Virus record (IMG/VR): IMGVR_UViG_3300044530_000541
Span: 1-21,094 of that record
DNA: 21,094 nt
Source: a virus
Direction: 5' to 3' (one strand)
In this document: piece after piece, positions 135-18,842 of the stretch
How the letters are laid out: each line of letters begins with the position of its first letter
Position numbering within the stretch: position 1 is the stretch's first letter
The notes under the pieces: model-generated
What the model was told of the DNA's origin: nothing
The model's database searches: none
What the model saw: only the letters and a program-made list of their open reading frames with translations
Made by a program: the position numbers and the translations under genes

Positions 135-325
135 AAGGCAATCAAACAGCGAATTTTTAGCACGGAATTGACAGGATAATCACCTAGAATAGGGGAAATT
201 TTTTTTTATGGGGGCGCGATACTCCACATCGACACACCCACACCACTTTCCAAGTTCCACTTGACAAACACCTCAACATATGCTACCTTCCACGCAACTT
301 ACCCACCTAACCTACCCAAAATTAT
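135..325 (+). other. Gene-free leader region before the phosphoesterase
   Basis: No convincing ORF is present between the repeat array and the ATG at 326. The region has a T run at about 199-207. From about 221 it is strikingly poor in G on the + strand and rich in A and C, ending in several CCYACC-like stretches just before the ATG. A TTGACA at 168-173 followed by TAGAAT at 185-190 has only 11 bases between the two, too short for a normal sigma-70 promoter. A better promoter is at 261-289. Confidence 0.6.
261..289 (+). promoter_or_regulatory. Putative promoter P1, TTGACA-N14-TGC-TACCTT
   Basis: A perfect -35 hexamer TTGACA (261-266) is followed by a 17-base spacer ending in TGC (281-283, extended -10) and a weak -10 TACCTT (284-289). 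The expected transcription start is near 296, giving a leader of about 30 bases to the phosphoesterase ATG at 326. The layout matches the promoters at 1551, 4576 and 7176, which raises confidence despite the poor -10. Confidence 0.5.
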
Positions 326-1378
326 ATGCGTGAAAACCTAATTGAACAACTGATTTCCTTAAATTTAAAGTCAGCCACCCGCAATGCAGTCCGCAAGCAT
401 ATCTCAGAATACGATTACCTACGTGAGTTTGGCACGTTCACCGAGTTCAAACGCCAAGCTGGGCTACTCAACTTGAAATCTCACAACAAGTATAGCAATG
501 CTGTTGCTAACAACGCTACGACTACTACCAAAACAGCCACCAAAATCACCTCAGAAATTAAGTCCTATAATACAATTAACACCTATGAACGTCCTCACGC
601 TGAGCGTTTTCAAACAATTGTGATAGGCTCAGACTACCACTCACATGACCACTGCCCATTCACTAGAGCTTTATTCATTGACAGCATTGCCCGTATTCAA
701 CCCAATACTGTAGTCCTATTAGGTGATTTCTTTGATTGCTACGAGTTCAGCAGCTATACTAAAGACCCACGCAAGCTAGACCTTGTGGGTGAATTTGCAT
801 GTATTCACAAACTCTTAGCTGACATACGCCAAGCTGCTCCAGATTGCGAAATCGACTTCATTGCAGGCAACCACGAGCATCGCATACTCAAGCACATTGC
901 CAACGAAGCTCCATTTGTGCAGCAGTTATTATCTGACGTACATGGCTTCTCATTTGGCAAGTTACTAGGATTTGATGACAACGAAATCAATTTCATTTGC
1001 AAAGGCGACCTATTCGCACATACCAACAGTGCAATTAAACGTGAGGTTAAACAAAATTACCTAATCAAACACGAAGCCTTAATGTTTAACCATTTCCCAG
1101 ATGGACGCAACTACGGCATTCCTGGACTAAACGGTCATCACCATTCTTATCATAGTACTCACCAGTACAACATTACTTACGGTCCTTATAGCTGGGTACA
1201 ACTAGGCAGTATGTGCATACGTGACGCAAGTTACTGCGATGGTCTAAAATGGACTACAGGATTTATGATTGCACATGTGGACACGCATACTAAGGCATCT
1301 GTCTTTGAGTATATCGACACAACAAGCGACCATGCTGTAATTGGCGGTCAGTTCTATACTCGTGATATGTGGGGTTAA
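326..1378 (+). CDS. Calcineurin-like metallophosphoesterase
   Basis: The protein is 350 residues and has the metal-binding signature of the calcineurin-like phosphoesterase superfamily: D-x-H at 103-105 (SDYHSHDH), GDxxD at 133-137, GNHEH at 181-185, a histidine at 256 (FNH) and GHHH at 270-273. Members hydrolyse phosphomonoesters or diesters using two metal ions; the substrate cannot be told from sequence. Residues 1-55 form a separate helical, basic segment containing FGTFTEFKRQAGL, which I associate with phage phosphoesterases and which may bind nucleic acid (inference). A Thr/Asn-rich linker (about 57-80) joins the two parts. No Shine-Dalgarno sequence precedes the ATG; the leader is A/C-rich, so translation may start by another route. 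It lies upstream of the endonuclease and terminase genes and is probably transcribed from P1. A role in DNA processing near packaging is a guess from position only. Confidence 0.9.
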   Translation: MRENLIEQLISLNLKSATRNAVRKHISEYDYLREFGTFTEFKRQAGLLNLKSHNKYSNAVANNATTTTKTATKITSEIKSYNTINTYERPHAERFQTIVIGSDYHSHDHCPFTRALFIDSIARIQPNTVVLLGDFFDCYEFSSYTKDPRKLDLVGEFACIHKLLADIRQAAPDCEIDFIAGNHEHRILKHIANEAPFVQQLLSDVHGFSFGKLLGFDDNEINFICKGDLFAHTNSAIKREVKQNYLIKHEALMFNHFPDGRNYGIPGLNGHHHSYHSTHQYNITYGPYSWVQLGSMCIRDASYCDGLKWTTGFMIAHVDTHTKASVFEYIDTTSDHAVIGGQFYTRDMWG

Positions 1379-1379
1379 T

Positions 1380-1568
1380 GTGCCTACAGCCAACGAACTA
1401 TACCTAGCTAGGCTAAGTGGCAATTTAAGCTACCCAAACGTATTTAGCCAGCTAGTTAGCACACCCGTGTACCCACCTTACCTATTGTACACTAATGAGC
1501 AACAATACTATCAGCACATGTACGTTCCTGAGCAACAAAACAACCAACACTTGACAAACCCACAATAA
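1380..1568 (+). CDS. Doubtful small ORF, Tyr/Gln/Asn/Pro-rich
   Basis: An open frame follows the phosphoesterase stop. A GTG at 1380 lies one base after the TAA and would give 62 residues; an ATG at 1341 inside the phosphoesterase gene would give 75. The product is rich in Tyr, Gln, Asn and Pro, has no recognisable domain, and has no ribosome binding site worth naming. The same stretch holds an imperfect inverted repeat (1404-1416 with 1444-1455), and its 3' end contains the -35 of promoter P2. It could be a small phage protein or simply a non-coding structured spacer. Confidence 0.3.
   Translation: MPTANELYLARLSGNLSYPNVFSQLVSTPVYPPYLLYTNEQQYYQHMYVPEQQNNQHLTNPQ
1404..1455 (+). repeat. Imperfect inverted repeat (stem-loop) after the phosphoesterase
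   Basis: CTAGCTAGGCTAA at 1404-1416 is complementary to TTAGCCAGCTAG at 1444-1455 with one base bulged, leaving a 27-base loop. There is no T run, so it does not look like an intrinsic terminator. It lies within the gap or doubtful ORF just after the phosphoesterase stop. Confidence 0.5.
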
Positions 1569-1579
1569 TGTGTTAGTCT
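1551..1579 (+). promoter_or_regulatory. Putative promoter P2 for the homing endonuclease
   Basis: TTGACA (1551-1556) is followed by 17 bases ending in TGT (1571-1573, extended -10) and TAGTCT (1574-1579). The expected start site near 1586 falls at the first base of the inverted repeat 1585-1642, so the transcript would begin with a stem-loop. The endonuclease ATG is at 1672. Confidence 0.55.
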
Positions 1580-1584
1580 ATCAA

Positions 1585-1642
1585 ATGACGGCTATGGTTT
1601 TGCAAGACCAGTGGTACAAGAGTGAGTACCCAGAGCCGTCAT
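1585..1642 (+). promoter_or_regulatory. Stem-loop at the 5' end of the endonuclease transcript
   Basis: ATGACGGCT (1585-1593) pairs perfectly with AGCCGTCAT (1634-1642). Nested inside is a second hairpin, GGTAC (1613-1617) with GTACC (1626-1630), closing an 8-base loop. The outer stem begins at the predicted start site of P2 and ends 21 bases before the endonuclease ribosome binding site at 1663. It has no following T run. Possible roles are stabilising the 5' end, tuning translation, or acting as a protein-binding site; homing endonuclease genes of other phages are known to have structured leaders that delay translation. Confidence 0.55.
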
Positions 1643-1662
1643 ATTATCACTCCCTAATACTC

Positions 1663-1666
1663 AAGG
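1663..1666 (+). promoter_or_regulatory. Ribosome binding site that fixes the endonuclease start
   Basis: AAGG lies five bases before the ATG at 1672. An in-frame GTG at 1570 would add 34 residues but has no such site, and those residues do not belong to the GIY-YIG fold, which begins almost at once after the ATG at 1672. Confidence 0.65.
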
Positions 1667-1671
1667 TACAA

Positions 1672-2646
1672 ATGAACAACTACTTAATATACAAACACAC
1701 TTCTCCATCTGGAAAAGCATATATTGGACAAACTAAAAACTACGAAAAACGCTGTGCTGCCCATAAAAGATTATCGAGTGGATGTCGCATATTTAGTCAT
1801 GCTATACAACACTACGGTTGGGATACTTTTAGCCATGAAATATTATACGATAATCTAACAATAGAACAAGCTAACGAACTTGAAGCTATGTGCATTTTAG
1901 AACACAACAGTTTATCACCAAATGGATATAATCTAAGAACAGGTGGTGATAACGAAACAGTATCTGATGAAACACGTAACAAACAACGTGAAGCTCAGTT
2001 AGGAATGAAACATTCTGCTGAAAGAAATGCTAAGAAATCAAAATATTTGACTGGAAGAAAACACTCACCAGAAAGAATAAATAAAGTAACCATAGCCAAT
2101 ACAGGTAAAAAACGTACAGCAGAACAAATAGAACGTATTGCTGCAACTAAACGTGGTGTGAAACAATCAGCTGAACATATTGAACTCCGTGCATCAAAAA
2201 TTCGTGGAGTCAAAAAATCACCAGAACACATTGAAAAAGTACGTTTAGTTAATATAGGCAAAGTGGTATCTGAAGAAACTAGAAAACGACAACGTGAAGC
2301 GCAATTGGGTAAAACAAGGTCACAAGAAGCTATCGCTAAAATAGCAACGGCTTTGCGTGGAAGAACTAGACCAAAAGAACTTATTGATAGTATGGCTTAT
2401 ACTAGAAACAAAAATATTTTTATAAAAGAATTTGCTTTATACAACATCAATATAAAACATTTGACTGATAACGAAATTGGAACAACTGTGCTTACTGGAT
2501 TATTAAATGTAAATAGAAGTGTGATAAACGATAGAATTAAAGCAAATAAATTTCTAAATGCATATTTTAAACATCCTGCTTGGCACATCCCATTACAAGA
2601 TATTCACGATTATTACATAAACGGCTCAATTTTATATGGCTTATGA
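1672..2646 (+). CDS. GIY-YIG homing endonuclease with NUMOD3 repeats
   Basis: The protein is 324 residues. The N-terminal nuclease domain (about 1-95) shows the GIY-YIG family pattern: YLIY at 4-7, AYIG at 16-19, a candidate catalytic arginine at 27, a glutamate in ELEAMCILE (about 69-77) and GYN at 85-87. Residues about 97-242 are a chain of short NUMOD3-type DNA-binding motifs (recurring G[MRV]KxSxEHIxK), followed by a helix-turn-helix-like end (TVLTGLLNVNRSVINDRIK, about 272-290). Such enzymes cut a specific DNA site and spread their own gene by recombination. It is free-standing here, placed between the phosphoesterase and terL, and overlaps terL by 11 bases. By eye it is richer in AT than terL, which fits a late arrival. 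Its target is probably in a related phage lacking the insert, perhaps near terL (inference). Confidence 0.92.
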   Translation: MNNYLIYKHTSPSGKAYIGQTKNYEKRCAAHKRLSSGCRIFSHAIQHYGWDTFSHEILYDNLTIEQANELEAMCILEHNSLSPNGYNLRTGGDNETVSDETRNKQREAQLGMKHSAERNAKKSKYLTGRKHSPERINKVTIANTGKKRTAEQIERIAATKRGVKQSAEHIELRASKIRGVKKSPEHIEKVRLVNIGKVVSEETRKRQREAQLGKTRSQEAIAKIATALRGRTRPKELIDSMAYTRNKNIFIKEFALYNINIKHLTDNEIGTTVLTGLLNVNRSVINDRIKANKFLNAYFKHPAWHIPLQDIHDYYINGSILYGL

Positions 2647-4174
2647 TTATAACCTAAAAACCAATCGTAAAATCATTTGGCAACCAAATCCAGGTAGCCA
2701 AGCACTTGCAATGAGCGCACCAGCAAATCTCATACTATATCATGGGACGAGAGGAAACGGCAAAACGGACGTACAGCTAATGCGCTTTCGTGCAGGAGTT
2801 GGCCAGGGATATGGTCGCCATTTTCGGGGGCTGTGTACAGACGTTCAGCTGAGTTCGCTCGATGATATTATTTCAAAAAGTAAAAAATACTTCTATCAAT
2901 TCAACGATGGTGCGCGGTTTTTATCAAGTAAGGGGGAAAATCGCTGGGTATGGCCTACTGGTGAGGAATTATTATTTCGTGCTGTAGATGATGTGACATC
3001 CTACGAAAAACTTCATGGGTCAGAATTTGCATATATTGCGATAAACGAAGCAAGCAAGTCGCCAGACAGTACGGTACTAGACCTATTAATGTCGCTTAAT
3101 CGAACATCATTTGTCCCAGAAGACCACCCATTGCCCGATGGTAGCCTACTGCCTGAACTCAAACTAACAATTTTTTTGACCACAAATCCATCTGGAATAG
3201 GGCGTAATTGGCTGAAGAAACGCTTTATTGACCAATCAGCTCCGGGTGAGATACTCAAAAAACATATAGCTATCTTCAATCCAAGAACCCAAGAAGATGA
3301 AATAATTACCAAGACGCAATGTCATATTTTCGGTTCATGGCGCGAAAATACCAAACTCTCAGCCGATTATGTCGCGGACCTCGCACAGATAACTGACCCA
3401 GTTAAGCGTAAAGCGTGGCTATTAGGTGATTGGGATGCAGGTTGTGAAGGTGGTATGTTTGATGACCTATGGCAATCAGATGTGCATATTATTAAGCCAT
3501 TTAACATACCACATAGCGGCTTTATAGACCGTTGCTTTGACTGGGGTAGCTCCGCACCCTTTTCCATAGCGTGGTACTGGAATTCAGATGGTTGTGATGT
3601 GACATTGTCGGATGGTCGAACAATAAGCACCATACGTGGTGACATATTCCGCATAGCCGAATGGTATGGTGCAGTAGAAGGTCAACCTACTAAGGGGTTA
3701 ATGATGCTTAATGCTGAAATAACCAAAGGCATCGTAGAACGTGAGATAGCTATGGGCATATATGGTCGCGTCAAACCAGGTGCAGCCGATAACTCAATCT
3801 GGGATGTTAAATCAGGTGCTTCTATTGCGGCAGATATGCTTAAACCAGTTCGCTTAGACGATGGCAAGACATATGCAGGGGTAACATGGCGCAGGTCAGA
3901 TAAATCACCAGGTTCGCGTACAGGGGGTTGGCAATCAGTACGTAAGTACCTATCTGGGGCAGTTCGACCATTAGGTTCAGTACGTGAGTTTCCAGGTTTA
4001 TTCATATTTAATACCTGCAAAGATTTTATTGAAATCTTCCCTACTTTGTCACGCGACAAAGATAACATGGACGACATAGACACAAGAGGATGTGACCATC
4101 AAGCCGATGAGTTACGTTATAAGATACTTTCAACCGCAACGGGTTCACGTTCTGGTAAAACTAAGGGGGTATGA
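2636..4174 (+). CDS. terL: Terminase large subunit (DNA packaging ATPase/nuclease)
   Basis: This 512-residue protein is the motor that drives phage DNA into the prohead and cuts it. The ATPase half has a Walker A loop GTRGNGKT at 37-44, a Walker B-like strand YIAINE at 133-138 (Asn in place of the usual first Asp, Glu138 kept), and a coupling motif TTNPSG at 182-187. The RNase H-like nuclease half has Asp302 in CFDWGSSAPF, Asp385 in GAADNSIWD, and Asp487/Asp491 in CDHQADELRY, the expected acidic triad. Length is normal for the family. The ATG lies inside the end of the endonuclease gene with no strong Shine-Dalgarno sequence, so translation may be coupled to that gene. No small terminase subunit is seen nearby. 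Confidence 0.96.
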   Translation: MAYDYNLKTNRKIIWQPNPGSQALAMSAPANLILYHGTRGNGKTDVQLMRFRAGVGQGYGRHFRGLCTDVQLSSLDDIISKSKKYFYQFNDGARFLSSKGENRWVWPTGEELLFRAVDDVTSYEKLHGSEFAYIAINEASKSPDSTVLDLLMSLNRTSFVPEDHPLPDGSLLPELKLTIFLTTNPSGIGRNWLKKRFIDQSAPGEILKKHIAIFNPRTQEDEIITKTQCHIFGSWRENTKLSADYVADLAQITDPVKRKAWLLGDWDAGCEGGMFDDLWQSDVHIIKPFNIPHSGFIDRCFDWGSSAPFSIAWYWNSDGCDVTLSDGRTISTIRGDIFRIAEWYGAVEGQPTKGLMMLNAEITKGIVEREIAMGIYGRVKPGAADNSIWDVKSGASIAADMLKPVRLDDGKTYAGVTWRRSDKSPGSRTGGWQSVRKYLSGAVRPLGSVREFPGLFIFNTCKDFIEIFPTLSRDKDNMDDIDTRGCDHQADELRYKILSTATGSRSGKTKGV

Positions 4175-4175
4175 C

Positions 4176-4412
4176 ATGGGTAAGATAGTACCATTCAAAA
4201 CAGCAAGTAACATTGCAAACGAGTTATCGCCAAATGACGTATTAGAAGAATCTAAAGACCAATTCAAAGAAATCCTTATTTTAGGGTATGACGTAGAAGG
4301 TTATTTAGATATACGTTCATCTAGCAATCTAAGCCATTCAGATATATCATGGTTAATCGACCTATTTAAGCAAAAGTTATTAAATGGCGATTTCATGGGT
4401 GATGACGAATAA
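4176..4412 (+). CDS. Small conserved-looking phage protein, 78 residues
   Basis: The start at 4176 is chosen because GGGGG at 4165-4169 (within AAGGGGG) stands six bases upstream and the ATG follows the terL stop by one base; a longer in-frame start at 4092 would overlap terL by 83 bases. The product is acidic and short, with a central pattern ILGYDVEGYLDIRSS followed by an amphipathic helix SDISWLIDLFKQKLL. I recall small phage proteins with a similar 'GYD-G-L-vrSS ... WLL' layout but cannot give a function. It sits between terminase and portal. Confidence 0.75.
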   Translation: MGKIVPFKTASNIANELSPNDVLEESKDQFKEILILGYDVEGYLDIRSSSNLSHSDISWLIDLFKQKLLNGDFMGDDE

Positions 4413-4433
4413 TTTAACTAACTGAGATTTCAC

Positions 4434-4592
4434 ATGAGTAACAAAGATAAAGTATTACGCAAAGGCATTAAATCAGATGATTTTTATCACGACAAATTGT
4501 CAGATAATAACAATAAACGTAAACAGTCTTCACCAAGAGACATGCCTTCTCAAAAAAAGAATTTTAACTATGATGTTGACAATAGCAAATGA
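4434..4592 (+). CDS. Small basic hydrophilic protein, 52 residues
   Basis: An ATG at 4434 opens a frame of 52 codons ending in TGA at 4590-4592. The product begins MSNKDKVLRKGIK and is very rich in Lys, Asn, Asp and Ser with no hydrophobic core, so it is probably disordered. There is only a weak GAG-like ribosome binding site. It contains a run of seven A at 4552-4558; removing one A would join it to a frame of about 34 more codons that ends at the portal start codon. The -35 of promoter P3 overlaps its 3' end. No function is recognised. Confidence 0.45.
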   Translation: MSNKDKVLRKGIKSDDFYHDKLSDNNNKRKQSSPRDMPSQKKNFNYDVDNSK

Positions 4593-4604
4593 ATGTGATA
4601 TAAG
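4576..4604 (+). promoter_or_regulatory. Putative promoter P3 for the portal operon
   Basis: This is the best-matching promoter in the window: TTGACA (4576-4581), a 17-base spacer ending in TGA (4596-4598, extended -10) and TATAAG (4599-4604, five of six consensus bases). The start site would be near 4611, giving a leader of about 50 bases to the portal ATG at 4662. It would drive portal, scaffold and the 24-residue peptide up to the terminator at 7136. Confidence 0.65.
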
Positions 4605-4661
4605 TATTTATTATCGCATAATTTTGGCTAAGCAACGTTATCTACACTGGAAATCATATAA

Positions 4662-6230
4662 ATGATAAACAATAAACATCCGCAGTATGCTGAGCATATT
4701 TATGACTGGACACTCATGCGTGACTGTTATAAAGGCGAGAGAGCTGTAAAAGACAAAAACACAATTTATTTGCCAGCTACACATGGTCAAGAATTAGATG
4801 GCATGGGCGTTGGCGAAGATGGATACAAATCCTATAGTGCATACAAGACACGGGCTATATTTCCTGGGTTTGTGTACACTGCCGTTGAGTCCTATTTAGG
4901 ACTATTGCATACAAAACCTACCGTAATTACCCTGCCACCAGAGATGGAGTATCTCCATACTAAAGCAACTATTACTGGTGAGGACTTAATTACTGTACTA
5001 CGCAAGATTCAAACTGAGCAACTAATTACTGGTCGCATTGGTGCATTAATGGACTTACGTGAAGAAGAATTGATACCTCAGCCATATATTGCGCTATATC
5101 ATGCAGAACGTATCATTAATTGGGATGACAATGACCCAACAGCGGGTCTAAATGCACTCAATATGGTTGTTCTTGACGAATCTCGTATGGTAAGGTCATC
5201 TGATTTTGTATGGCGTACAGCCTTAAAGTATCGCATACTAACATTAGGTAATCTATTTGCCAATGAACCAAACAATGCTAATTATGTATATCAACAGTCA
5301 TTAGTAGATTTAACTACTGCTGGTGGTACAGAGAATACAAATTATGACGATTTCATCACACCTGTCATTAGAAATAATCCATTACAAGAAATTCCGTTTG
5401 TGTTTATTAACTCTAAAGACACAGCAACTATGCCAGATGTGCCACCATTGTTGTCACTTTCTACATTGTGCTTAGCTATTTATCGCGCAGAAGCAGATTA
5501 TCGTCATACACTATATATGCAAGGACAAGATACGCTTGTTATTATTGCAGGCTCTAGTGACCCAGATGATGAAACTCGTGTAGGTGCTGGTTCTAAGATT
5601 GAAGTTGGCATGGGTGGTGACGCTAAATACATTGGCGTATCATCAGGTGGTTTGACAGAAATGCGTAGTTCTTTAGAGAATGACCGAGTATCAGCTCAAG
5701 CAATGTCTGGTCAATTGGCATCTAACAAAGGCTCACAAGAATCTGGTGACGCATTGCGCTTAAGAATGGCGAGTCAAACAGCTAATCTGACACAAGTTGC
5801 AATTGCATCGTGCTATGGCTTAGAACGCTTACTTAAAATTACTGCACGTTGGATGAACTTAGACGACAGCTTAGTCACTGTGACACCTAACTTGCAATTT
5901 GCTGACAACCGCATGACAGGTCAAGACTTTGTACAATTGATGCAAGCTAAATCAATGGGATTACCGCTTAGTGATGAATCATTGCATAGTCTAATGCAAG
6001 CACAGAATTTAACCGCTATGCATTATGACGAAGAAGCTAAATTGTCTATAGAAGAATTTACTAAGATGAAAGAGCTTACTGTTAAGTTAATGCCTAAGCC
6101 AGTAGCTCCTGTAGGCAACCCGCAGGGTAATGACCAGCAAGGCAACCCGCAAGAGCCAAATGCAACTAAGCCACAAGATACCGCAAAACAACCGCCTAAA
6201 GGCAAACAAACTAACCAACCTAACCAATAG
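4662..6230 (+). CDS. Portal protein
   Basis: At 522 residues, this is the expected portal: the twelve-subunit ring at one capsid vertex through which DNA enters and leaves. Support comes from position (after terL, before scaffold and capsid), length, and a sequence style I associate with the DUF4055 portal family: an N-terminal HPQYAEHIYDWTLMRDCYKG (about 6-25), YLPATHGQ (about 38-45), a hydrophobic FVYTAVESYLGLL segment, and a helical stretch rich in Met/Gln/Ala around 340-400. The last 45 residues are low-complexity Pro/Gln/Asn/Lys, probably a flexible tail. The ATG overlaps the stop of a short upstream frame (ATGA), and no strong Shine-Dalgarno sequence is present. The family assignment is from memory and was not searched. 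Confidence 0.85.
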   Translation: MINNKHPQYAEHIYDWTLMRDCYKGERAVKDKNTIYLPATHGQELDGMGVGEDGYKSYSAYKTRAIFPGFVYTAVESYLGLLHTKPTVITLPPEMEYLHTKATITGEDLITVLRKIQTEQLITGRIGALMDLREEELIPQPYIALYHAERIINWDDNDPTAGLNALNMVVLDESRMVRSSDFVWRTALKYRILTLGNLFANEPNNANYVYQQSLVDLTTAGGTENTNYDDFITPVIRNNPLQEIPFVFINSKDTATMPDVPPLLSLSTLCLAIYRAEADYRHTLYMQGQDTLVIIAGSSDPDDETRVGAGSKIEVGMGGDAKYIGVSSGGLTEMRSSLENDRVSAQAMSGQLASNKGSQESGDALRLRMASQTANLTQVAIASCYGLERLLKITARWMNLDDSLVTVTPNLQFADNRMTGQDFVQLMQAKSMGLPLSDESLHSLMQAQNLTAMHYDEEAKLSIEEFTKMKELTVKLMPKPVAPVGNPQGNDQQGNPQEPNATKPQDTAKQPPKGKQTNQPNQ

Positions 6231-6239
6231 AGAAAAATC

Positions 6240-7025
6240 ATGGAATTAAATATTTTCGAAGATGACATTTTGCATTTAGACCCTGTTTTGCAATCACTTT
6301 ATAGTGAAGACAATGGCAAGTTTAAATTAACCGCTGTTAAAGATATGAAGACAACAGCCGACATCGCTGCTCTGCAAAATGCATTAGCTATGGAACGTAA
6401 TGACCATAAAGTAGCCAAAGAACAAATTTCAGCATACAAAGCATTTGGTGATACTGAAACTATTGCTCAACAGTTGTCACGTATTGCTGAACTTGAAGCT
6501 GGTGCAGGTAAACCAGATGAAGATAAAATTAATGCTGTAGCTGCAGCTCGTGTGAATACACTTGTTAAGCCACTTGAAGTTGAACGTAATCAACTGCAAC
6601 AACAGATAACTGAATATACACAAGTTATTGAAGGTTACAAAGTAAGTGAAAACAGACGTGTAATCAAAGACAGTGTTACCGAAGCTATCGGCAAAGCAAA
6701 ACTCGACCCAACTTATTCAGAACATGTGCATTTGCTTGCAGAAAAGATTTTTACTATTGATGATATGCAACGTCCAGTAACAAAAGACAACGTAGGTTGT
6801 ACTCCATTTATTGACCCAACCGTGTGGCTTTCAGAAATGCAAGCTAAATATCCATACTGGTGGGGTAAATCAGCAGGTGGCGGTGCGCCAGGTTCGAATG
6901 GCGGTATGTCTAATGCAGACAATCCATTCAGCAAAAATTCTTGGAATTTAACCAAGCAGGGTGAACTCTTTAGAGAGAATCCACAACGCGCTGAGCAGCT
7001 TAGACAAATGGCTGCTCGGTCTTAA
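6240..7025 (+). CDS. Scaffold-like prohead assembly protein
   Basis: This 261-residue protein lies between portal and major capsid genes, where the scaffold is usually found. Residues about 35-150 are highly charged and predicted by eye to be long helix or coiled coil (EQISAYKAFG, LEVERNQLQQQITEY). The C-terminal third has a compact part with YPYWWGK, a Gly-rich linker (about 212-226) and a final NPFSKNSWNLTKQGEL ... NPQRAEQL segment, which I associate with phage scaffold or minor capsid assembly proteins. Scaffolds guide coat assembly and then leave. No protease is visible in the window. The ATG follows the portal stop by nine bases with only a weak AGAG site. Confidence 0.7.
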   Translation: MELNIFEDDILHLDPVLQSLYSEDNGKFKLTAVKDMKTTADIAALQNALAMERNDHKVAKEQISAYKAFGDTETIAQQLSRIAELEAGAGKPDEDKINAVAAARVNTLVKPLEVERNQLQQQITEYTQVIEGYKVSENRRVIKDSVTEAIGKAKLDPTYSEHVHLLAEKIFTIDDMQRPVTKDNVGCTPFIDPTVWLSEMQAKYPYWWGKSAGGGAPGSNGGMSNADNPFSKNSWNLTKQGELFRENPQRAEQLRQMAARS

Positions 7026-7050
7026 TCTTATCGTAACGGAGAATTATAAA

Positions 7051-7125
7051 ATGGCAAAAGCAAAAGCAGCACCAGGAAAAAAACCTAAAGCACCAATGAA
7101 ACCGGGTAAATATAAAATCTGTTAA
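7051..7125 (+). CDS. 24-residue Lys/Ala/Pro-rich basic peptide
   Basis: ATG at 7051 opens 24 codons ending in TAA at 7123-7125; GGAG at 7038-7041 is a good ribosome binding site nine bases upstream. The product (MAKAKAAPGKKPKAPMKPGK then YKIC) carries eight lysines, no acidic residues, and ends in Cys. It is the last gene before a strong intrinsic terminator and just ahead of the capsid gene. Its composition recalls nucleic-acid-binding histone tails or the basic tails of capsid-associated proteins. The start signal makes translation plausible; the function is unknown. Confidence 0.55.
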   Translation: MAKAKAAPGKKPKAPMKPGKYKIC

Positions 7126-7135
7126 GTAATATCAT

Positions 7136-7163
7136 ACCCTAGTTTAAAAGCTAGGGTTTTTTG
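7136..7163 (+). terminator. Intrinsic terminator ahead of the capsid gene
   Basis: ACCCTAG (7136-7142) pairs with CTAGGGT (7151-7157); two further pairs (one G-U) leave a TAAA tetraloop. The stem is followed directly by a run of T to 7162. This closes the portal-scaffold transcript and separates it from the capsid promoter 13 bases later. Confidence 0.9.
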
Positions 7164-7175
7164 TTTAGTAATCTA

Positions 7176-7204
7176 TTGACAATTTATAAATAGTATGCTA
7201 GACT
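7176..7204 (+). promoter_or_regulatory. Putative promoter P4 for the major capsid operon
   Basis: TTGACA (7176-7181), a 17-base spacer ending in TGC (7196-7198, extended -10) and TAGACT (7199-7204). It lies between a terminator and the capsid gene, the best possible context. The start site would be near 7211, leaving a leader of about 100 bases before the capsid ATG. Confidence 0.75.
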
Positions 7205-7224: not shown

Positions 7225-7278
7225 ATGGGTCAATTACAAAAAATTAAAATTCCTACTCATGGGAGGTGGAAGTTATAA
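7225..7278 (+). CDS. Possible 17-residue leader ORF upstream of the capsid gene
   Basis: Within the capsid leader an ATG at 7225 reads MGQLQKIKIPTHGRWKL and stops at 7276-7278. It is basic but has no convincing ribosome binding site. CATGGG occurs twice in this leader (7224 and 7258), once over this start codon. The ORF could be a short regulatory leader peptide or chance. Confidence 0.2.
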   Translation: MGQLQKIKIPTHGRWKL

Positions 7279-7310
7279 CATTCAACTCATTATATAAAAG
7301 GAAGTAAACA

Positions 7311-8456
7311 ATGGCAACTTTTACAAATACATTAAGTTCATTGATTGTACCAGAGGTATTCAACCCTTATGTACAACAATTAACACAAGAAAAATCACGT
7401 TTAATTAATTCAGCTGTTATCGCCCGTGACCCATTATTGGATGCGTTCTTGGCTGGTGGCGGTATGACAACCAACATCCCATCATTCAAAGATTTGTCAA
7501 GTGCTGACGCTGAATCTGTTTCAGATGGTACAACTAATACAATCACTGCACCTACAACTGGTCAGTCTGCATCGCTTGAAACTCAAATTCGTTTGTCACG
7601 TAACAAATCATGGCGTTCATTTGACTTAGAACGCGACTTAGCTGGTGCTGACCCAATGGCATCTATCGCTAACCGTGTATCTGAATACTGGGCTAGACGT
7701 TTGCAAGCAGCCTTCATTAGTACTATGAAAGGTGTATTCGCTAACAATTCTTTAGCAACACCTGGTGGTGGCGCAGCTCAATATGACTTAACACGCGACA
7801 TCGCATGGTCAAATGGTGCTACACAAACTGTAGCTAATGCTTATTCAATCGGTACAAGTACGTTCTCAGCTTCTGCGTTTATTGATGCAGCGTTGACAAT
7901 GGGTGATTCATTAGAAAACTTAAGCACATTATTCGTACATTCAGTTGTTTATGCACGTATGTTGAAAAATGACTTAATTGAATTTGTTGCTAACACACCT
8001 GTTGGTACTGGTTTAGCTGGTGGTCTTTTAGATTCACAAGCAAGTACACGTATCCCTACATTCATGGGTCGTGAAGTTATCGTTGACGATTCTATGCCTG
8101 TTGTTCAAGCTACTTCAGCTTCTGGTGTTCCAATTGCAGGTTCTTATGTTTATGAATCTTGGTTATTCGCTCGTGGTGCTGTACGTTTAGGTTTAGGCGC
8201 ACCAAAAATCCCAACAGAAACTATCCGTTTACCGGGTCTTGGTAATGGTGGTGGTGCTGAAGAACTTTACAACCGTGTTGAATGGTGTATTGCTCCTGTC
8301 GGTACTTCTTATGCTGGCGCAACTACTACAGGTGGCGGTCCATTAAATGGTAACGCAGCTACAGCTAATACTTTGGCTCATAGTGGTTCATGGTCACGCG
8401 CGTATGCAGAACGTAAACAAATTCCATTCGCTAGATTGTTAACACGCGAATCTTAA
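7311..8456 (+). CDS. Major capsid protein
   Basis: This 381-residue protein is the main shell subunit. Its start is fixed by AAGGAAG about eight bases upstream of the ATG. The sequence has features I associate with a siphovirus-type coat protein family: N-terminal LIVPEVFNPYVQQ (about 11-23), TTNIPSFKDLS (about 53-63), KSWRSFDLERDLAGADPM ... VSEYWARRLQAAFI (about 100-137), a GVFANN segment, and a late GREVIVDDSMP strand typical of HK97-fold coats. Further support is position after the scaffold, a dedicated promoter with a long leader, and a downstream hairpin. An HK97-like fold is inferred, not shown. The Gly/Ala/Thr-rich stretch near residues 335-355 may be a surface loop. Confidence 0.9.
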   Translation: MATFTNTLSSLIVPEVFNPYVQQLTQEKSRLINSAVIARDPLLDAFLAGGGMTTNIPSFKDLSSADAESVSDGTTNTITAPTTGQSASLETQIRLSRNKSWRSFDLERDLAGADPMASIANRVSEYWARRLQAAFISTMKGVFANNSLATPGGGAAQYDLTRDIAWSNGATQTVANAYSIGTSTFSASAFIDAALTMGDSLENLSTLFVHSVVYARMLKNDLIEFVANTPVGTGLAGGLLDSQASTRIPTFMGREVIVDDSMPVVQATSASGVPIAGSYVYESWLFARGAVRLGLGAPKIPTETIRLPGLGNGGGAEELYNRVEWCIAPVGTSYAGATTTGGGPLNGNAATANTLAHSGSWSRAYAERKQIPFARLLTRES

Positions 8457-8476
8457 TTCTTAATTAGGATTTAATA

Positions 8477-8504
8477 AGGAAGTCAGCTATGCAGTTGACT
8501 TCCT
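8477..8504 (+). promoter_or_regulatory. Strong stem-loop after the capsid gene
   Basis: AGGAAGTCA (8477-8485) pairs perfectly with TGACTTCCT (8496-8504); three more pairs inside (one G-U) leave a four-base loop. No T run follows, so full termination is unlikely; partial termination, RNA processing or 3'-end protection of the abundant capsid mRNA are possible. The left arm also holds an AGGAAG Shine-Dalgarno-like sequence six bases before an ATG at 8489 that opens only eight codons. Confidence 0.7.
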
Positions 8505-8533
8505 GCTATTACTAGATTGCAAAAGGAACAAAC

Positions 8534-9046
8534 ATGGCAACATTATTAGAAGTAATTAAAACATTAGACCCTAACGATGCTACATTGTGGACATCAGACG
8601 GTTTACCAAAATTAGATAAATTATCATTAGCTCTTGGCAGTAATGTTACTCGCACAGAAGTTAATGCTGTTGCATTTGGTTTAACAAAAGACAACGTAGC
8701 GACATGGGTTGCTCCACCAAGTAAAGAACCTGCTGTTGAAGCAGAAGCTCCAGTTAATGTTGAAACTACAAATGCTGAATTACTTAACGAAATTAAAGTA
8801 TTATCAGATAGTTATTCAGAAAAACGTGCAGCGTTATTAGAATTGCAAAAAGAATTAGATGTAGTTGCAACAGGTATTGCAGCAGCACATAGTAAAGTAG
8901 TTGAAGAATCAGACCCACACTTGTTTAACAAATCAATTCAAGGTATGTTCGCTTCAGAAGATTTAGCTCGTAAAGAAGGTATCTTAGCTTATGTCAATGA
9001 AATTGACCGTAGAAACAAACCTTACTCAGAGGTCACTACGTTATGA
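8534..9046 (+). CDS. Capsid-associated phage protein with an N-terminal 'WTSDGLP' domain
   Basis: The protein has 170 residues. Its N-terminal part (about 1-60: VIKTLDPNDATLWTSDGLPK ... VTRTEVNAVAFG) follows a pattern seen in phage proteins encoded next to capsid genes, in which LDP-x-D-x-x-W-T-x-D-G-x-P precedes a VTRxE segment. The middle is acidic (PAVEAEAPVNVE) and residues about 80-118 look like a coiled coil (LLNEIKVLSDSY ... LLELQKELDVV). AAAAGGAAC provides the ribosome binding site. It is the first gene after the capsid hairpin. A head completion or accessory role is inferred from position; no enzymatic motif is seen. Confidence 0.7.
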   Translation: MATLLEVIKTLDPNDATLWTSDGLPKLDKLSLALGSNVTRTEVNAVAFGLTKDNVATWVAPPSKEPAVEAEAPVNVETTNAELLNEIKVLSDSYSEKRAALLELQKELDVVATGIAAAHSKVVEESDPHLFNKSIQGMFASEDLARKEGILAYVNEIDRRNKPYSEVTTL

Positions 9047-13489: not shown

Positions 13490-14118
13490 TGACAGCTAGA
13501 TACCCTTTAGTGCTTAATGGCACTACTATACAAGAATTACAAACTACTGACACTATAGCAGGACAAGCTGCTTCTGGTGCTAATAGTGATATTACTTCAT
13601 TAACAGCATTAACCACAGCATTATCAGTTCCTCAAGGTGGTTCAGGTGCTGATACATTAACTGGTATCTTGAAAGGCAATGGTGCATCTGCATTTACTGC
13701 AGTAACAGCTCCAACTGGAACAATTGTTGGTACAACTGATACTCAGACTTTAACTAACAAAACAATTACTGCATTAGGTTCTTATGAAACCAGAGTGGCA
13801 ATGGCTGCATTAGACATAGATTTGTCATTAGGTTCATACTTTACTAAGACCTTAACAGCAGGAGCTGCTACGTTTACTGTAAGTAATATTCCTGCCACTG
13901 GCGGTGTAGGTTCATTTATATTGGACTTAACTAATGCTGGCTTAGCAACTATTACATGGACATTGTCAGTAGCTGCTGGCGGTACATCAACAGTTAAATG
14001 GGTAAGCGGTACTGCTCCATCAAGTTTAACATCTTCTGGTAGAGATTCATTTGGTTTTTATACCTATGACGCTGGAGCAACTTGGACTGGATATGTAATC
14101 GGCAAGGACTTAAAATAA
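13489..14118 (+). CDS. Tail-fibre-like protein C, 209 residues
   Basis: The N-terminus YPLVLNGTTIQELQTTDTI parallels the 78-residue protein at 11083. The next section (SVPQGGSGADTLTGILKGNG, then TIVGTTDTQTLTNKTIT, about 46-94) is a fibre motif set common in phage. Residues about 105-209 form a beta sandwich-like end (TKTLTAGAATFTVSNIP ... WTGYVIGKDLK). It is flanked on both sides by TAATG overlaps, so it is translated together with fibre B and the LamG protein. Confidence 0.8.
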   Translation: MTARYPLVLNGTTIQELQTTDTIAGQAASGANSDITSLTALTTALSVPQGGSGADTLTGILKGNGASAFTAVTAPTGTIVGTTDTQTLTNKTITALGSYETRVAMAALDIDLSLGSYFTKTLTAGAATFTVSNIPATGGVGSFILDLTNAGLATITWTLSVAAGGTSTVKWVSGTAPSSLTSSGRDSFGFYTYDAGATWTGYVIGKDLK

Positions 14119-17100
14119 TGAGTAATCGCAAAATACTAAATGCAGCAGCAACTGGTGGCATTGGCTATTATCCAGTAGTAGGTGCTAGTGACCCATATTA
14201 CGACAATGTGTCATTACTGCTAAATGGCGATACTACGGTTGATGATAATTTTGCTAATGTATCGTTGTTATTAACTGGTAACGATTTGCTGGATAAGTCT
14301 AATAATAAATTAACTGTAACAGCTTATGGACAAGCTTCAGTCACTAGCGTTAAAAAACAATTTGGTACTGGAAGTTATTATTTTGATGGTAGTGGTGATT
14401 ATATTCGACCTGCTGCATCTGACACTTGTATGTTTGGTACTGGCGATTTTACAATAGAATTCTGGACATATCGTATTTCTGGTGGAGAATTTTTCGGTAA
14501 TGGTCCTGCTGGTGGTGGTTCATTTGGCTTAGGGTTAGGTGCTGCAAATGGCGATACAACTAAACTACAATGTGCTATCTATGGTTCTCCTGCTGCTAAT
14601 TTATCATGTGTAACTAATTTCCCTTCAAATCAATGGATTCATGTTGCTGTTACCCGTGCTAGTGGAACAACTAGAATATTTCTTAATGGTGTTAAAGATG
14701 CTGAAACTACAGCTGGCGGTGCAAACAACACCACAAATACGCCAAGTGTTGGCGAAGTATGGCTGGGTTCTGGTTCAACTTTAAACGGTTACATTGACGA
14801 CTTCCGCATAACCAAAGGTGTAGCTCGATACACTACTAATTTTACACCACCTACTGCGGCATTACCATCACATGAGATATTAGATAGTTCAGTTTATAGA
14901 TTACCTGTAACTGCTTACGGTAACGCAAGGATTAATACAGCTACTAAGAAGTATGGCACTGGTGCTATGTATTTTGATGGGAATGGGGATTATTTAACAT
15001 TACCAGCTAGTTCTAACTTAGATATAGGCGGTGGTGATTTTACTATTGAATTGTGGTGTTGGTACGCTGGAACTACATGGCCATCTAACAATGATTTATT
15101 AGGTACTGGTGGATACTATACTGCTGGTAAAAATGGTAATTGGGCATTTAGTATTCGTAATGCTACAGCAATAATGTTTGTTATTTACAATGGACAATCT
15201 GATACAACTGGTGGTGTTTACGATTTTACAGTACCTAACATATCTGTACAAAGCTGGCATCACATAGCTGTAACTAGGCTTAACGGGTTGGTTAATATTT
15301 GGGTGGATGGTGTTAAAAGTGTAACTAGTTTAACAAATAATACTGCAATTAGCGATGGTAGTGCTTCAGGTTTAAAAGTTGGAGGGTATATCTATCCAGC
15401 ATCACCAAATTATTTTTATGGTTACATAGATGACATCCGTATAACCAAAGGTTACGCACGTTACACAACCAACTTCACACCACCAACTACAGCATTACCA
15501 ACAACACCTCCAACTATCTTAGCTGACCCTTGGTGGGGCAATGTGTCATTGTTACTAGACGGTAACACAACTGACGCATACGACCCGTATTGGCAGAATG
15601 TGTCACTGATGTTAACTGGTGATGATTTTATTGATTGGTCTAATCAGCATAATGCTATTACAGTTGCTGGGAATACAAGTATTAATACAGTAACGAAGAA
15701 ATACGGCACAGGTGCTATGTATTTTGATGGCAGTGGGGATTATTTAAATTTGCCTATAACTTCAAAATTACTATTAGATGGCGACTTTACTATAGAAATG
15801 TGGATACAATTGCCGTTATCGGCAGCATTGACATATTATTTCTTGCTTGGTTTTTCGTCACCGAATAATTACATAGCCTTAAACAAAGCAGATGCAGCTA
15901 ATTATAAATTGGAATACTATGATGGTGGCAATGATATTTATTCAACTGTAACCTTACCTCTAAACTCTTTCGCACACGTTGCAATTGTAAAGAAAACAAA
16001 TATTATTACTTTATATGTTAATGGAGTTGGGTCATCATCAACGAATACTGGTGCTGTTACATGGGGTAGTGACTCGACTTCTATGTATGTCGGGAAAAGT
16101 TTAGCTTATCCAGGTTCGTGGGAACTGAGTGGTTACATAGACGACCTACGCATAACCAAAGGCATCGCTCGCTACACAGCAAACTTCACACCACCTATCG
16201 CAGCATTACCAGCATTTAAAATCCAAGACCGTACTCAGAATAACCTGACACTTACACCTTATGGCAATGTTCAACTTAGCACTGATGTTAAGAAGAATGG
16301 TACTGGTAGTATGTTCTTTGATGGTACTGGGGATTATTTATCTATTCCTATGAGTAGCAATTTACAATTAGGGTCAGGTCAATTTACTGTCGAATGCTGG
16401 TTTTATGCTAATAGTATTTCGGGTACTAATACTGCATTAATGGGTTGCTACCGAGTAACATCATATCCATCAAATACTGCAGGTTGGGATATTATATACC
16501 AAAGCAGCACTATTACATTTAGATGGGGTTCTCCTGCTTATAATGATATTGGTCAGATTGCTACTACTGCGAACCAATGGCATCACGTTGCTGTTGTAAA
16601 TGCTGGTTCAAATATTAAAATGTTTTTAGATGGTATTCAAGTAGCATCAATAACAACAAATGCTATCGTAACAGACAGCGCAGAATCCACATTGTGGATA
16701 GGATGGGCAGGTTCATTATCAGGAACAACGATTAACCCATTCAACGGCTACATCGACGACCTACGCATAACCAAAGGTTACGCACGATACACCCAAAACT
16801 TTACTCCACCTAGCCAGTCATTTGCTACTCAGTATATCTCAACAGGTTTTGACCCTAATTACGCTGACGTATCGTTGTTATTGACAGGTGAAGGGACTAA
16901 TGGTAGTACGACGTTTACGGATTTGAGTAGTAGTCCTAAGACTATAACAGCTTATGGTAATGCGCAGATTAGTACTGCACAGAAAAAGTATGGTACAGGT
17001 AGTATGTACTTTGATGGTAGTGGGGATTATGCAACGATTCCGTCCACAGCTACTGGGTTCAGTGGTGATTTTACAGTAGAAGGTTGGTGCTACTACAGTA

Positions 17101-18842
17101 ATACGACTGGGTATGCAACTATTTTTGATGCTAGAGCAGCAGGTACATATTCAGGAATTTTACTATATGTTAATGTTGGAACTAGTTCCATAAATGTAAC
17201 TGTCGGAGCTAGTACGGTTATTATAACTGGAGCTAACCCAGCAGCAAATATATGGTTTCATTTTGCATTATCCAGAAGTGGTACATCCATTTATTTGTTT
17301 ATTAATGGTTCACAAGTAGGTTCAACCGCAACTAATAGTACAGCATTTCCATCAAATACATTATATTTAGGTGCATTTCGTGAACCAACGCCAACCTTAA
17401 ATGGGTATATTGACGACCTAAGAATAACAAAAGGCATCGCTCGTTACACAACCAACTTCACACCACCAACCTACGCATTAGCTACTACAGCTGGTACACC
17501 ATTTGATGTTAATCGCAGTAGCACATCGTTATTGCTAAGAGGTAATGGCACGAATGGTAGCACATCGTTTACAGATGAATCGCCTAATAATTTGACTGTG
17601 ACTACTTATGGTCAAACTCAGATTAGTACAAGTGTTAAAAAGTATGGTACTGGTGCTATGTATTTTGATGGCAATAGTGATTATTTGAGTGTTTCAAATA
17701 GTGCTAATTTTGCGTTTGGAACTGGAGATTTTACTATTGAGTGTTGGGTTAATATTGCGTTGTTTTCGTCTAATCCGGTTATTATCGATACTAGAGCTAC
17801 TTCATCTTCTTCTGCTGGATTTGCACTATTCTTCGATACGTCAGGTAAGCTAAATCTATTTTTAGCCAATGCAACCCGAATATTAACATCATCAGCTTAT
17901 AGTTCAAATGTTTGGTATCATGTTGCTTTAGTGCAATCGTCATCTATAATTTCTTTATATGTAAACGGGATTGTTGCAGGTACATATACAAATTCTTATA
18001 CATTAACAGATACTCTATGTGCGATAGGCTCTCTTACTAGCTATGATGCTGGTTCAGTTTATAAAATGAATGGTTACATAGACGACCTAAGAATAACCAA
18101 AGGCTACGCACGATACACTGCTAACTTTACACCACCTACCTACGAAGACCCAACCGTAACTGGTACTCAGTATGATTATAATTATGCTCAGGTTAGTTTG
18201 TTGTTGAATGGTGATGGTACTAATGGAAGTACATCGTTTACGGATTTGAGTAGTAGTCCTAAGACTATTACAACTTACGGTAATGCTCAGATTAGTACTG
18301 GTACTAAGAAGTTTGGCACTGGTAGTATGTATTTTGACGGTAGTGGAGATTATATATCTACACCTAGTACATCAAATTTATCCTTTGGTTCTGGCAACTT
18401 TACTATTGAGGTTTGGGTTTACGCTAGTGGTTTAGGTTCTTATAACGCTGTATTTGCACAATGGCCTGACGATGGTGCTTCGTCAAATAACTCTTATGTT
18501 ATGGAATCAGTTGGGTCAAGTATGAATTTTTATTGTGCAGCTAGCGGTTCAGTAATATCTGCAACACTTGGAACGATTACAACGGGGTCGTGGATTTATT
18601 ACACAATTTGCAGAAGTGGAAATACTTTATATCCGTTTAAAAATGGGGTTTTAGGAACACCTGTATCAATTACTCAAACATTGAATAGTCCAACATCTAA
18701 TGTAACTGTTGGGGGTAATGTTGCAGGTGGTGGTTTTTGGAACGGTTACATCGACGACCTCCGTATCACCAAAGGCATTGCTCGCTACACAACTGATTTC
18801 ACACCACCAACAGCACCATTACCAACATCTGGAGGATATTAA
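14118..18842 (+). CDS. Giant LamG-repeat adhesin, seven lectin-like domains
   Basis: The start at 14118 overlaps the previous stop (TAATG) and gives 1574 residues; an upstream in-frame ATG at 14082 lies inside the previous gene. The protein is a chain of seven concanavalin A-like (LamG) domains of about 205-235 residues. Each has YGTGxMYFDGSGDY near its start, a GDFTIExW strand, a WxHVAxxR strand, and a closing GYIDDxRITKG ... ARYT-x-x-FTPP signature at residues 224, 435, 672, 877, 1096, 1319 and 1543. Such domains bind sugars or surfaces, so host adhesion is likely. Domains 2 and 4 lack the first strand NVSLLL, while an extra copy of it stands before domains 1 (residue 30) and 3 (residue 475). 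There is no signal peptide or membrane segment. The following gene looks like a fibre assembly chaperone. Confidence 0.9.
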   Translation: MSNRKILNAAATGGIGYYPVVGASDPYYDNVSLLLNGDTTVDDNFANVSLLLTGNDLLDKSNNKLTVTAYGQASVTSVKKQFGTGSYYFDGSGDYIRPAASDTCMFGTGDFTIEFWTYRISGGEFFGNGPAGGGSFGLGLGAANGDTTKLQCAIYGSPAANLSCVTNFPSNQWIHVAVTRASGTTRIFLNGVKDAETTAGGANNTTNTPSVGEVWLGSGSTLNGYIDDFRITKGVARYTTNFTPPTAALPSHEILDSSVYRLPVTAYGNARINTATKKYGTGAMYFDGNGDYLTLPASSNLDIGGGDFTIELWCWYAGTTWPSNNDLLGTGGYYTAGKNGNWAFSIRNATAIMFVIYNGQSDTTGGVYDFTVPNISVQSWHHIAVTRLNGLVNIWVDGVKSVTSLTNNTAISDGSASGLKVGGYIYPASPNYFYGYIDDIRITKGYARYTTNFTPPTTALPTTPPTILADPWWGNVSLLLDGNTTDAYDPYWQNVSLMLTGDDFIDWSNQHNAITVAGNTSINTVTKKYGTGAMYFDGSGDYLNLPITSKLLLDGDFTIEMWIQLPLSAALTYYFLLGFSSPNNYIALNKADAANYKLEYYDGGNDIYSTVTLPLNSFAHVAIVKKTNIITLYVNGVGSSSTNTGAVTWGSDSTSMYVGKSLAYPGSWELSGYIDDLRITKGIARYTANFTPPIAALPAFKIQDRTQNNLTLTPYGNVQLSTDVKKNGTGSMFFDGTGDYLSIPMSSNLQLGSGQFTVECWFYANSISGTNTALMGCYRVTSYPSNTAGWDIIYQSSTITFRWGSPAYNDIGQIATTANQWHHVAVVNAGSNIKMFLDGIQVASITTNAIVTDSAESTLWIGWAGSLSGTTINPFNGYIDDLRITKGYARYTQNFTPPSQSFATQYISTGFDPNYADVSLLLTGEGTNGSTTFTDLSSSPKTITAYGNAQISTAQKKYGTGSMYFDGSGDYATIPSTATGFSGDFTVEGWCYYSNTTGYATIFDARAAGTYSGILLYVNVGTSSINVTVGASTVIITGANPAANIWFHFALSRSGTSIYLFINGSQVGSTATNSTAFPSNTLYLGAFREPTPTLNGYIDDLRITKGIARYTTNFTPPTYALATTAGTPFDVNRSSTSLLLRGNGTNGSTSFTDESPNNLTVTTYGQTQISTSVKKYGTGAMYFDGNSDYLSVSNSANFAFGTGDFTIECWVNIALFSSNPVIIDTRATSSSSAGFALFFDTSGKLNLFLANATRILTSSAYSSNVWYHVALVQSSSIISLYVNGIVAGTYTNSYTLTDTLCAIGSLTSYDAGSVYKMNGYIDDLRITKGYARYTANFTPPTYEDPTVTGTQYDYNYAQVSLLLNGDGTNGSTSFTDLSSSPKTITTYGNAQISTGTKKFGTGSMYFDGSGDYISTPSTSNLSFGSGNFTIEVWVYASGLGSYNAVFAQWPDDGASSNNSYVMESVGSSMNFYCAASGSVISATLGTITTGSWIYYTICRSGNTLYPFKNGVLGTPVSITQTLNSPTSNVTVGGNVAGGGFWNGYIDDLRITKGIARYTTDFTPPTAPLPTSGGY
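16912..16945 (+). repeat. 34-base exact repeat in LamG domain 5, second copy in domain 7
   Basis: This 34-base block, beginning CGTTTACGGATTTGAG, is repeated base for base at 18235-18268. It encodes the start of domains 5 and 7 (FTDLSSSPKT). Flanking bases differ at many third positions, so identity over 34 bases suggests recent copying between the two domains. Confidence 0.85.
18235..18268 (+). repeat. Second copy of the 34-base exact repeat, LamG domain 7
   Basis: Identical to 16912-16945, offset by 1323 bases, which is close to the length of two LamG domains. It lies at the start of domain 7 in the same reading frame. Confidence 0.85.

Follow-up and report, generated by a model that had tools for sequence, protein, structure and literature searches.

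Probable sigma-70-type extended −10 promoters and a candidate antisense-type leader RNA before a homing endonuclease gene in a viral contig

The window analysed here, a stretch of 21,094 bases, is an entire IMG/VR virus record (IMGVR_UViG_3300044530_000541). Four sites with the pattern TTGACA-N14-TGN-TA, upstream of its phosphoesterase, terminase, portal and capsid genes, look like sigma-70 extended −10 promoters kept before orthologous genes. Between the second of these promoters and the terminase gene lies a gene for a GIY-YIG homing endonuclease, and we read the structured RNA leader ahead of this gene as a new variant of the antisense control known from phage C4 and P4 CI RNAs. The explanation that combines sigma-70 promoters, a terminase promoter at 1551 and an antisense-type leader on the endonuclease gene is in our judgement the best one, and we consider it probable as a whole.

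A promoter pattern of fixed geometry

A sequence-only reading had proposed the shared promoter design, and our pattern scan returned all four sites with the −10 letters it had named. The sites and the features next to them are as follows.

261-289, + strand: phosphoesterase promoter, TTGACA-N14-TGC-TACCTT, ahead of the ATG at 326
1551-1579, + strand: terminase promoter (previously taken as an endonuclease promoter), TTGACA-N14-TGT-TAGTCT, from the pattern scan; its counterpart in the locus L008 stands directly before the terminase gene
4576-4604, + strand: portal promoter, TTGACA-N14-TGA-TATAAG, from the pattern scan; the final G is conserved
7136-7162, + strand: hairpin and T run resembling an intrinsic terminator, just upstream of the capsid promoter, kept in L039 and L007
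7176-7204, + strand: capsid promoter, TTGACA-N14-TGC-TAGACT, from the pattern scan, with a leader of about 100 nucleotides
16881-16909, + strand: fifth match to the pattern, located within a repeat in the coding sequence of the open reading frame (ORF) 14118-18842, judged to be chance

All five matches lie on the + strand, compared with a mean of 0.12 and a largest count of 2 in 100 dinucleotide shuffles. When gaps of 9 to 21 were allowed on both strands, the + strand gave matches at gap 14 alone (five), and the − strand a single one at gap 20. The pattern was formulated after the sites had been seen, though it coincides with an established promoter consensus (see below); the earlier claim that the geometry is unlikely to be accidental is confirmed. 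TTGACA by itself is not enriched in the window (17 observed, 18.4 expected), nor does a plain consensus scan of the window without TGN show an excess (64 promoter-like sites, 67.8 expected). The signal hence resides in the combination. The word intergenic applies loosely, as two short ORFs, 1341-1568 and 4434-4592, extend with their 3' ends over the −35 boxes of the sites at 1551 and 4576, respectively.

We take the pattern to be the long-known sigma-70 extended −10 consensus. Sigma-70 prefers a spacer of 17 bases, and N14 plus TGN gives just these 17 bases; the fixed geometry therefore reflects a preference of sigma-70 and not a special phage code. In the window, each of the four sites has TTGACA as its −35 box, 17 nucleotides from a −10 box of the TAnnnT form, the portal site being without the final T, and TGN of the TRTGN type lies immediately 5' of the −10 box, TG itself being part of the selection pattern. 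What we describe is thus an ordinary, known promoter class, and its rule offers a simple, checkable way to locate the transcription units of these low-GC phages.

Recurrence in related phages

Searches with the portal and capsid proteins led to 33 and 57 related loci, respectively. Across 31 records, the pattern matched 49 times, compared with three matches of a reversed control pattern. A closer count was made in 13 contigs, i.e., the window and 12 relatives (319,736 nucleotides, with ORF calls from a simple greedy script). Here N14 gave 47 matches, which correspond to 42 unique sites since the sets include near-duplicates, and 38 of the 47 have their −10 box outside called ORFs although 65-95% of each contig was called coding. 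The comparison of intergenic with coding counts thus also came out in favour of the proposed design. Other gaps yielded two matches (N13), ten (N15, nine of them outside ORFs), ten (N22, four outside) or between none and five (the rest of 8-21). N15 corresponds to an 18-base spacer, and as nine of its ten matches lie outside ORFs, the promoter set exceeds the strict pattern. At the 42 unique sites, two letters that had not been selected stand just before TG; one is T at 36 sites, the other a purine (A or G) at 40. The final −10 letter, equally outside the selection, is T in 33.

The sites recur in the same gene slots. Before phosphoesterase relatives, the pattern is present in the window, G003, G005, G006 and G026; within 500 nucleotides upstream of the portal gene in the window, G001, G003, G004, G005 and G006; before the scaffold gene in G005 and G006; and before the capsid gene in the window, G001, G005, G006 and G007. 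These recurring slots precede relatives that are 34-61% identical, and between close relatives the boxes are conserved while the spacers have diverged. Around 76 loci of GIY-YIG relatives (37.6% GC, some from related phages), N14 gave eight unique sites and other gaps 0-2 each, a preference that a class of host promoters should show.

An origin of the sites by chance, or as an artefact of AT-rich sequence, is in our view extremely unlikely. It would accord with the unremarkable frequency of TTGACA and with the one match of five that is coding, namely the match at 16881, whose −10 box is without a final T. The excess of five matches over 0.12, the prominence of gap 14 throughout the 319,736 nucleotides and the equally good fit of the unselected letters speak against it. 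Some results do limit how far the promoter design can be generalized: 17 of the 31 records contain no pattern match, many related portal genes have no such site upstream, and distant capsid relatives (56.5% GC) have a single N14 site in 640,323 nucleotides. From the latter it follows that the portal/capsid family as a whole does not share the design.

Which polymerase reads these promoters? The sequence-only reading had assigned them to host sigma-70 RNA polymerase and had suggested that graded −10 quality may set relative expression. Its promoter part is supported, as the sites look like real promoters of the extended −10 type, and neither a T7-type RNA polymerase (PF00940; the T7 positive control was detected) nor a Sigma70_r4 domain was found in 18 records, which may be fragments. 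Given these two absences, host transcription of the phage genes is likely, and use of the host enzyme is what we infer from them.

A sigma factor, activator or unrecognised polymerase made by the phage might assist, with the portal box TATAAG as the mark of a late regulator. Indeed, TATAAG is the portal −10 in all six of the 13 contigs with a pattern within 500 nucleotides of the portal gene, and the portal site of L024 keeps TATAAG with TTTACA as its −35. The departure from the final T is thus conserved in this slot, across portals that are 54-92% identical. Furthermore, the records are incomplete. In G020, a site 585 nucleotides upstream of the portal has the −10 box TAATAT. The boxes match the host sigma-70 consensus, however, and with Sigma70_r4 and T7-type polymerase missing from the 18 records we consider a phage factor unlikely.

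The promoter at 1551 and its downstream genes

The site at 1551 had been described as the promoter of the endonuclease gene. It remains a promoter, yet its owner appears to be the terminase gene: in L008, the matching promoter has TTGACA at 2602 and the terminase gene follows directly at 2659 with no endonuclease gene between. An endonuclease gene lies between promoter and terminase gene in the window, L009, L103, L104 and L105. In the window, the two genes are arranged as follows.

1672-2646, + strand: gene for a homing endonuclease with GIY-YIG and NUMOD3 domains, between the terminase promoter and terL (phrog_314, E 2e-36)
2636-4174, + strand: terL, gene for the terminase large subunit (phrog_979, E 1e-18), its ATG overlapping the endonuclease end

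The terminase gene begins at 2636 and hence within the endonuclease gene, which ends at 2646. By its catalytic domain and its NUMOD motifs, the endonuclease is a GIY-YIG homing endonuclease; NUMOD3 scored above its cut-off, and GIY-YIG (PF01541) slightly below (21.5 bits, cut-off 22.6). Its start at 1672 was set from the conserved MNNYL, the reading frame being open from 1570. Endonuclease genes are found at other places as well. In L104 (1465-2213) and L105 (1645-2396), a further one follows the phosphoesterase promoter directly, in the place that the phosphoesterase gene takes in the window, and L008 and L009 have a leader-bearing endonuclease gene after the phosphoesterase gene.

A structured leader with a loop complementary to two downstream sites

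The interval between the promoter at 1551 and the endonuclease start contains the following elements.

1585-1642, + strand: predicted leader RNA with a three-way junction (fold z −2.5)
1585-1592 with 1635-1642, + strand: stem P1 (fold and covariation)
1595-1598 with 1607-1610, + strand: stem P2 (fold and covariation)
1611-1617 with 1626-1631, + strand: stem P3 (fold and covariation)
1618-1625, + strand: P3 loop, AAGAGTGA, in which GAGTGA is 1620-1625
1647-1652, + strand: site 1, TCACTC, complementary to GAGTGA of the P3 loop
1659-1666, + strand: site 2, ACTC (1659-1662), complementary to the P3 loop, adjoining the Shine-Dalgarno-like AAGG (1663-1666)

In five distinct sequences, the 24 pairs of this structure, those between loop and site 1 included, are 100% paired, and six of them are double-changed, compared with zero to one when the partners were slid by 1 to 3 columns. 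In L104, a G to T change in the loop is answered by C to A in both site 1 and site 2.

In the window, ORF 1570-2646 carries the open endonuclease frame across the leader, and the frame is also open in L039; the stretch might hence be coding instead, with an endonuclease start at 1570 or 1585 and stems that are incidental. In L104 and L105, however, the frame first opens at 2444, 39 nucleotides inside the leader, and the RNA pairs are retained. We hence hold a coding origin to be highly improbable.

The same plan written in other letters was seen upstream of the GIY-YIG relatives L122, L124, L126, L131, L135 and L144, and in L110, where the downstream gene is not a GIY-YIG endonuclease. Within this set, each loop fits its own sites (mean 10.7) better than swapped ones (4.2), and among the 5040 permutations of seven members only the identity reaches this value. 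In a scan of upstream regions, a score of at least 19 was reached in 13 of 60 GIY-YIG regions, some near-duplicates being left out, compared with 3 of 1200 mononucleotide shuffles. In 12 of 13 members, P1 is preceded at a distance of 4-7 nucleotides by the end of a TAnnnT box (399 of 5200 random positions in the same loci), in ten of the 13 together with TGN (35 of 5200). Sigma-70 transcription starts about seven nucleotides downstream of the −10 box, and from the position of the TAnnnT box in the 12 members it follows that the RNA probably starts at P1. The −35 box is TTGACA in the window, L009, L104, L105 and L122.

Further members were sought by pattern and by covariance model. A leader pattern scan of viral contigs returned eight stretches, among which L108 and L109, inside unrelated ORFs, were judged to be chance and L110 was retained as a possible member. 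Model R1, run over 81 sources, reached E <1 beyond its own input only at L110 (E 0.011) and L122 (E 0.48). In the leaders that resemble the int-alpA RNA (RF02996), MAFFT misaligned P3. At E <= 10, the int-alpA model itself had matches in 4 of the 44 records searched. L131 (38.6 bits) and L192 (37.9 bits) exceed its cut-off of 35.8, L144 (33.3 bits) and another record (8.7 bits) fall below it, and 7 of 14 control genomes matched weakly with none above the cut-off. The int-alpA RNA of L192 (1502-1613, in G014, a relative of the window phage) stands directly before an ORF that appears helicase-like by eye. The RNA class is thus not restricted to endonucleases.

Could the inverted repeats act as DNA, either as an endonuclease target or as an insertion site, with no role as RNA? 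The repeat does accompany endonuclease genes at different places, as in L008, L009, L104 and L105. On the other hand, the complementarity of loop and sites is preserved by compensatory change and recurs with other letters, P1 lies at the predicted transcript start, and two members of the set score above the int-alpA cut-off. A function at the DNA level thus seems very unlikely to us.

Several observations count against our interpretation of the leader or narrow its reach. The covariation of the window type comes from five distinct sequences that are closely related. The loop-site test comprised nine members, seven of them in the exact permutation, with loops picked by eye. Taken singly, the members do only modestly, as between 1 and 186 of 2000 shuffles reach their score (34 for the window). 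The upstream scan was designed after members were known; 47 of its 60 regions stay below the mark, L131 included, and among its 13 matches five are of the window type and L147, L152 and L162 are doubtful. L110 has no −10 box before P1, and the −35 box is poor (two of six letters) in L124, L131, L135 and L144. An Rfam scan of the window and two leaders returned no credible match, and the window RNA fits none of the Rfam families, neither C4 nor int-alpA. Finally, in the annotated phages MK21, PhiCrAssBcn18, Octan and MIZ4, which carry distant endonuclease relatives, the upstream gap is below 55 nucleotides or the genes overlap. This leaves no room for an intergenic leader in these four phages, and the arrangement is therefore not general. 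A genome scan with the endonuclease alignment returned 14 distant loci, all in metagenome-assembled genomes, which gave no hint of the host.

Possible mode of action

Each of the four promoters would open its own transcription unit, and the transcript from 1551 would start at about the first base of P1, as we infer from the distance between −10 box and P1. Ahead of the endonuclease start codon, the P3 loop could then pair with site 1 and site 2. Once paired with site 2, it would mask the Shine-Dalgarno sequence of the endonuclease gene, and site 1 might aid capture. The RNA would in this way lower endonuclease translation, much like the phage C4 and P4 CI antisense RNAs. As terL begins inside the endonuclease end, terminase translation could be coupled, and its expression would perhaps be lowered too. 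The terminator scan of the window listed no terminator-like site between leader and endonuclease gene, which makes translational control more likely.

Alternatively, the leader might act in cis only, concealing the ribosome-binding site in the manner of a pseudoknot or a switch, and not as a diffusible antisense RNA. Loop and sites do lie on one short transcript, with an interval of just 4 nucleotides between P1 and site 1. Two sites for one loop, together with the processed C4 RNA described in the available part of PMC5320573, suggest pairing in trans instead. We regard a purely cis-acting leader as a plausible alternative that is nonetheless the less probable one.

We may further speculate that the antisense-type leader belongs to a portable cassette of some phage GIY-YIG homing endonuclease genes. 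In it, transcription from an extended −10 promoter would begin with the first base of an RNA of the C4/CI/int-alpA type, and the variable P3 loop of this RNA would read two sites ahead of the endonuclease start codon. Such a cassette would let each endonuclease silence itself with a specificity coded by the loop, as in the difference between the C4 RNAs of phages P1 and P7, and here the terminase gene would come under the same RNA. We put this forward tentatively, with the chances for and against it not far from balanced. If the antisense reading of the leader were true, the immunity-type RNA of P1/P7 and the satellite P4 would extend to mobile endonuclease genes, and the leader control would offer a reason why an endonuclease gene can precede an essential packaging gene. 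The loop-site code also makes the antisense reading directly testable. A literature search of titles and abstracts found no such structured leader described for homing endonucleases.

Other features of the window

All 22 genes called in the window by a simple gene caller lie on the + strand. They include genes for a metallo-phosphoesterase, the GIY-YIG endonuclease, terminase, portal, scaffold, major head protein and tail assembly chaperone. Besides those given above, the genes behind the promoters are as follows.

326-1378, + strand: metallo-phosphoesterase (phrog_20266, E 8e-70; PF00149 with 22.2 bits, cut-off 21.5)
4662-6230, + strand: portal protein (phrog_145, E 3e-100)
7311-8456, + strand: major head protein (phrog_247, E 5e-87)

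A kinship with Queuovirinae/Nipunavirus-like phages was judged by the portal and by the gene order terL-portal-scaffold-capsid. The portal protein is about 49% identical to Nipunavirus portals, and the gene order of DoCa3 is similar; the window may be a fragment. A megablast comparison with 50,697 phage records gave no match to the window.

Around the capsid gene, two further elements were seen. In its 5' leader (window 7250-7297, and L039, L010, L011 and L012), CATGGG-G-TG-A followed by an AACT-like stretch is conserved, possibly as an upstream ORF of 7-12 codons (by eye) or as an RNA element. Between the capsid gene and the next one, a strong 12-bp hairpin without a T run (8477-8504; fold z −4.2 for 8450-8540) might shield the end of the capsid mRNA. 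The ORF 14118-18842 encodes a protein of 1574 amino acids with seven lectin-like Laminin_G_3 stretches, which is perhaps a host-recognition or decoration protein. A simple CTTGCT repeat occupies the contig end (1-134) and is either a real repeat or an assembly artefact.

Comparison with known promoters and RNAs

The window sites resemble extended −10 promoters of the TRTGN type in TTGACA, the 17-base spacer, TRTGN and TAnnnT. There is no difference in kind, and the portal TATAAG departs from the consensus in its final T.

For the leader, three known RNAs invite comparison. According to the available part of PMC5320573, the C4 RNA of phages P1 and P7 has three stems, is excised by RNase P and pairs through its loops with the target mRNA, and one of these pairings partly covers the ribosome-binding site. 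As far as this source goes, C4 (RF01695) and the window RNA share three stems, P1-P3, and a loop complementary to a downstream site by the ribosome-binding site, site 2 adjoining AAGG in the window. In contrast, one loop serves both sites in the window RNA and the target gene is that of a homing endonuclease; furthermore, its transcript appears to start at P1, which would make cleavage by RNase P, as described for C4, unnecessary. The C4 model matched none of 12 records at E <= 10 and was weak in 5 of 14 control genomes, none above its cut-off; cmscan gave no C4 match either.

The int-alpA RNA, for which the available part of PMC12370729 provides a table entry and one sentence, has a three-way junction as well, and in its consensus, as we read it, the P3 loop contains CCUU and AAGG follows downstream. 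The cut-off of its model is exceeded by L131 and L192. In contrast, the window RNA does not match it, and the downstream genes here are GIY-YIG endonucleases or the ORF judged helicase-like by eye.

The CI RNA of P4 binds the nearby seqA and ends transcription early, as stated in the accessible part of PMC10111431. As far as that part describes CI, the leader resembles it in being a small RNA with a binding site close by on its own early transcript. CI works by early termination, whereas the window has no terminator-like site listed between leader and endonuclease gene.

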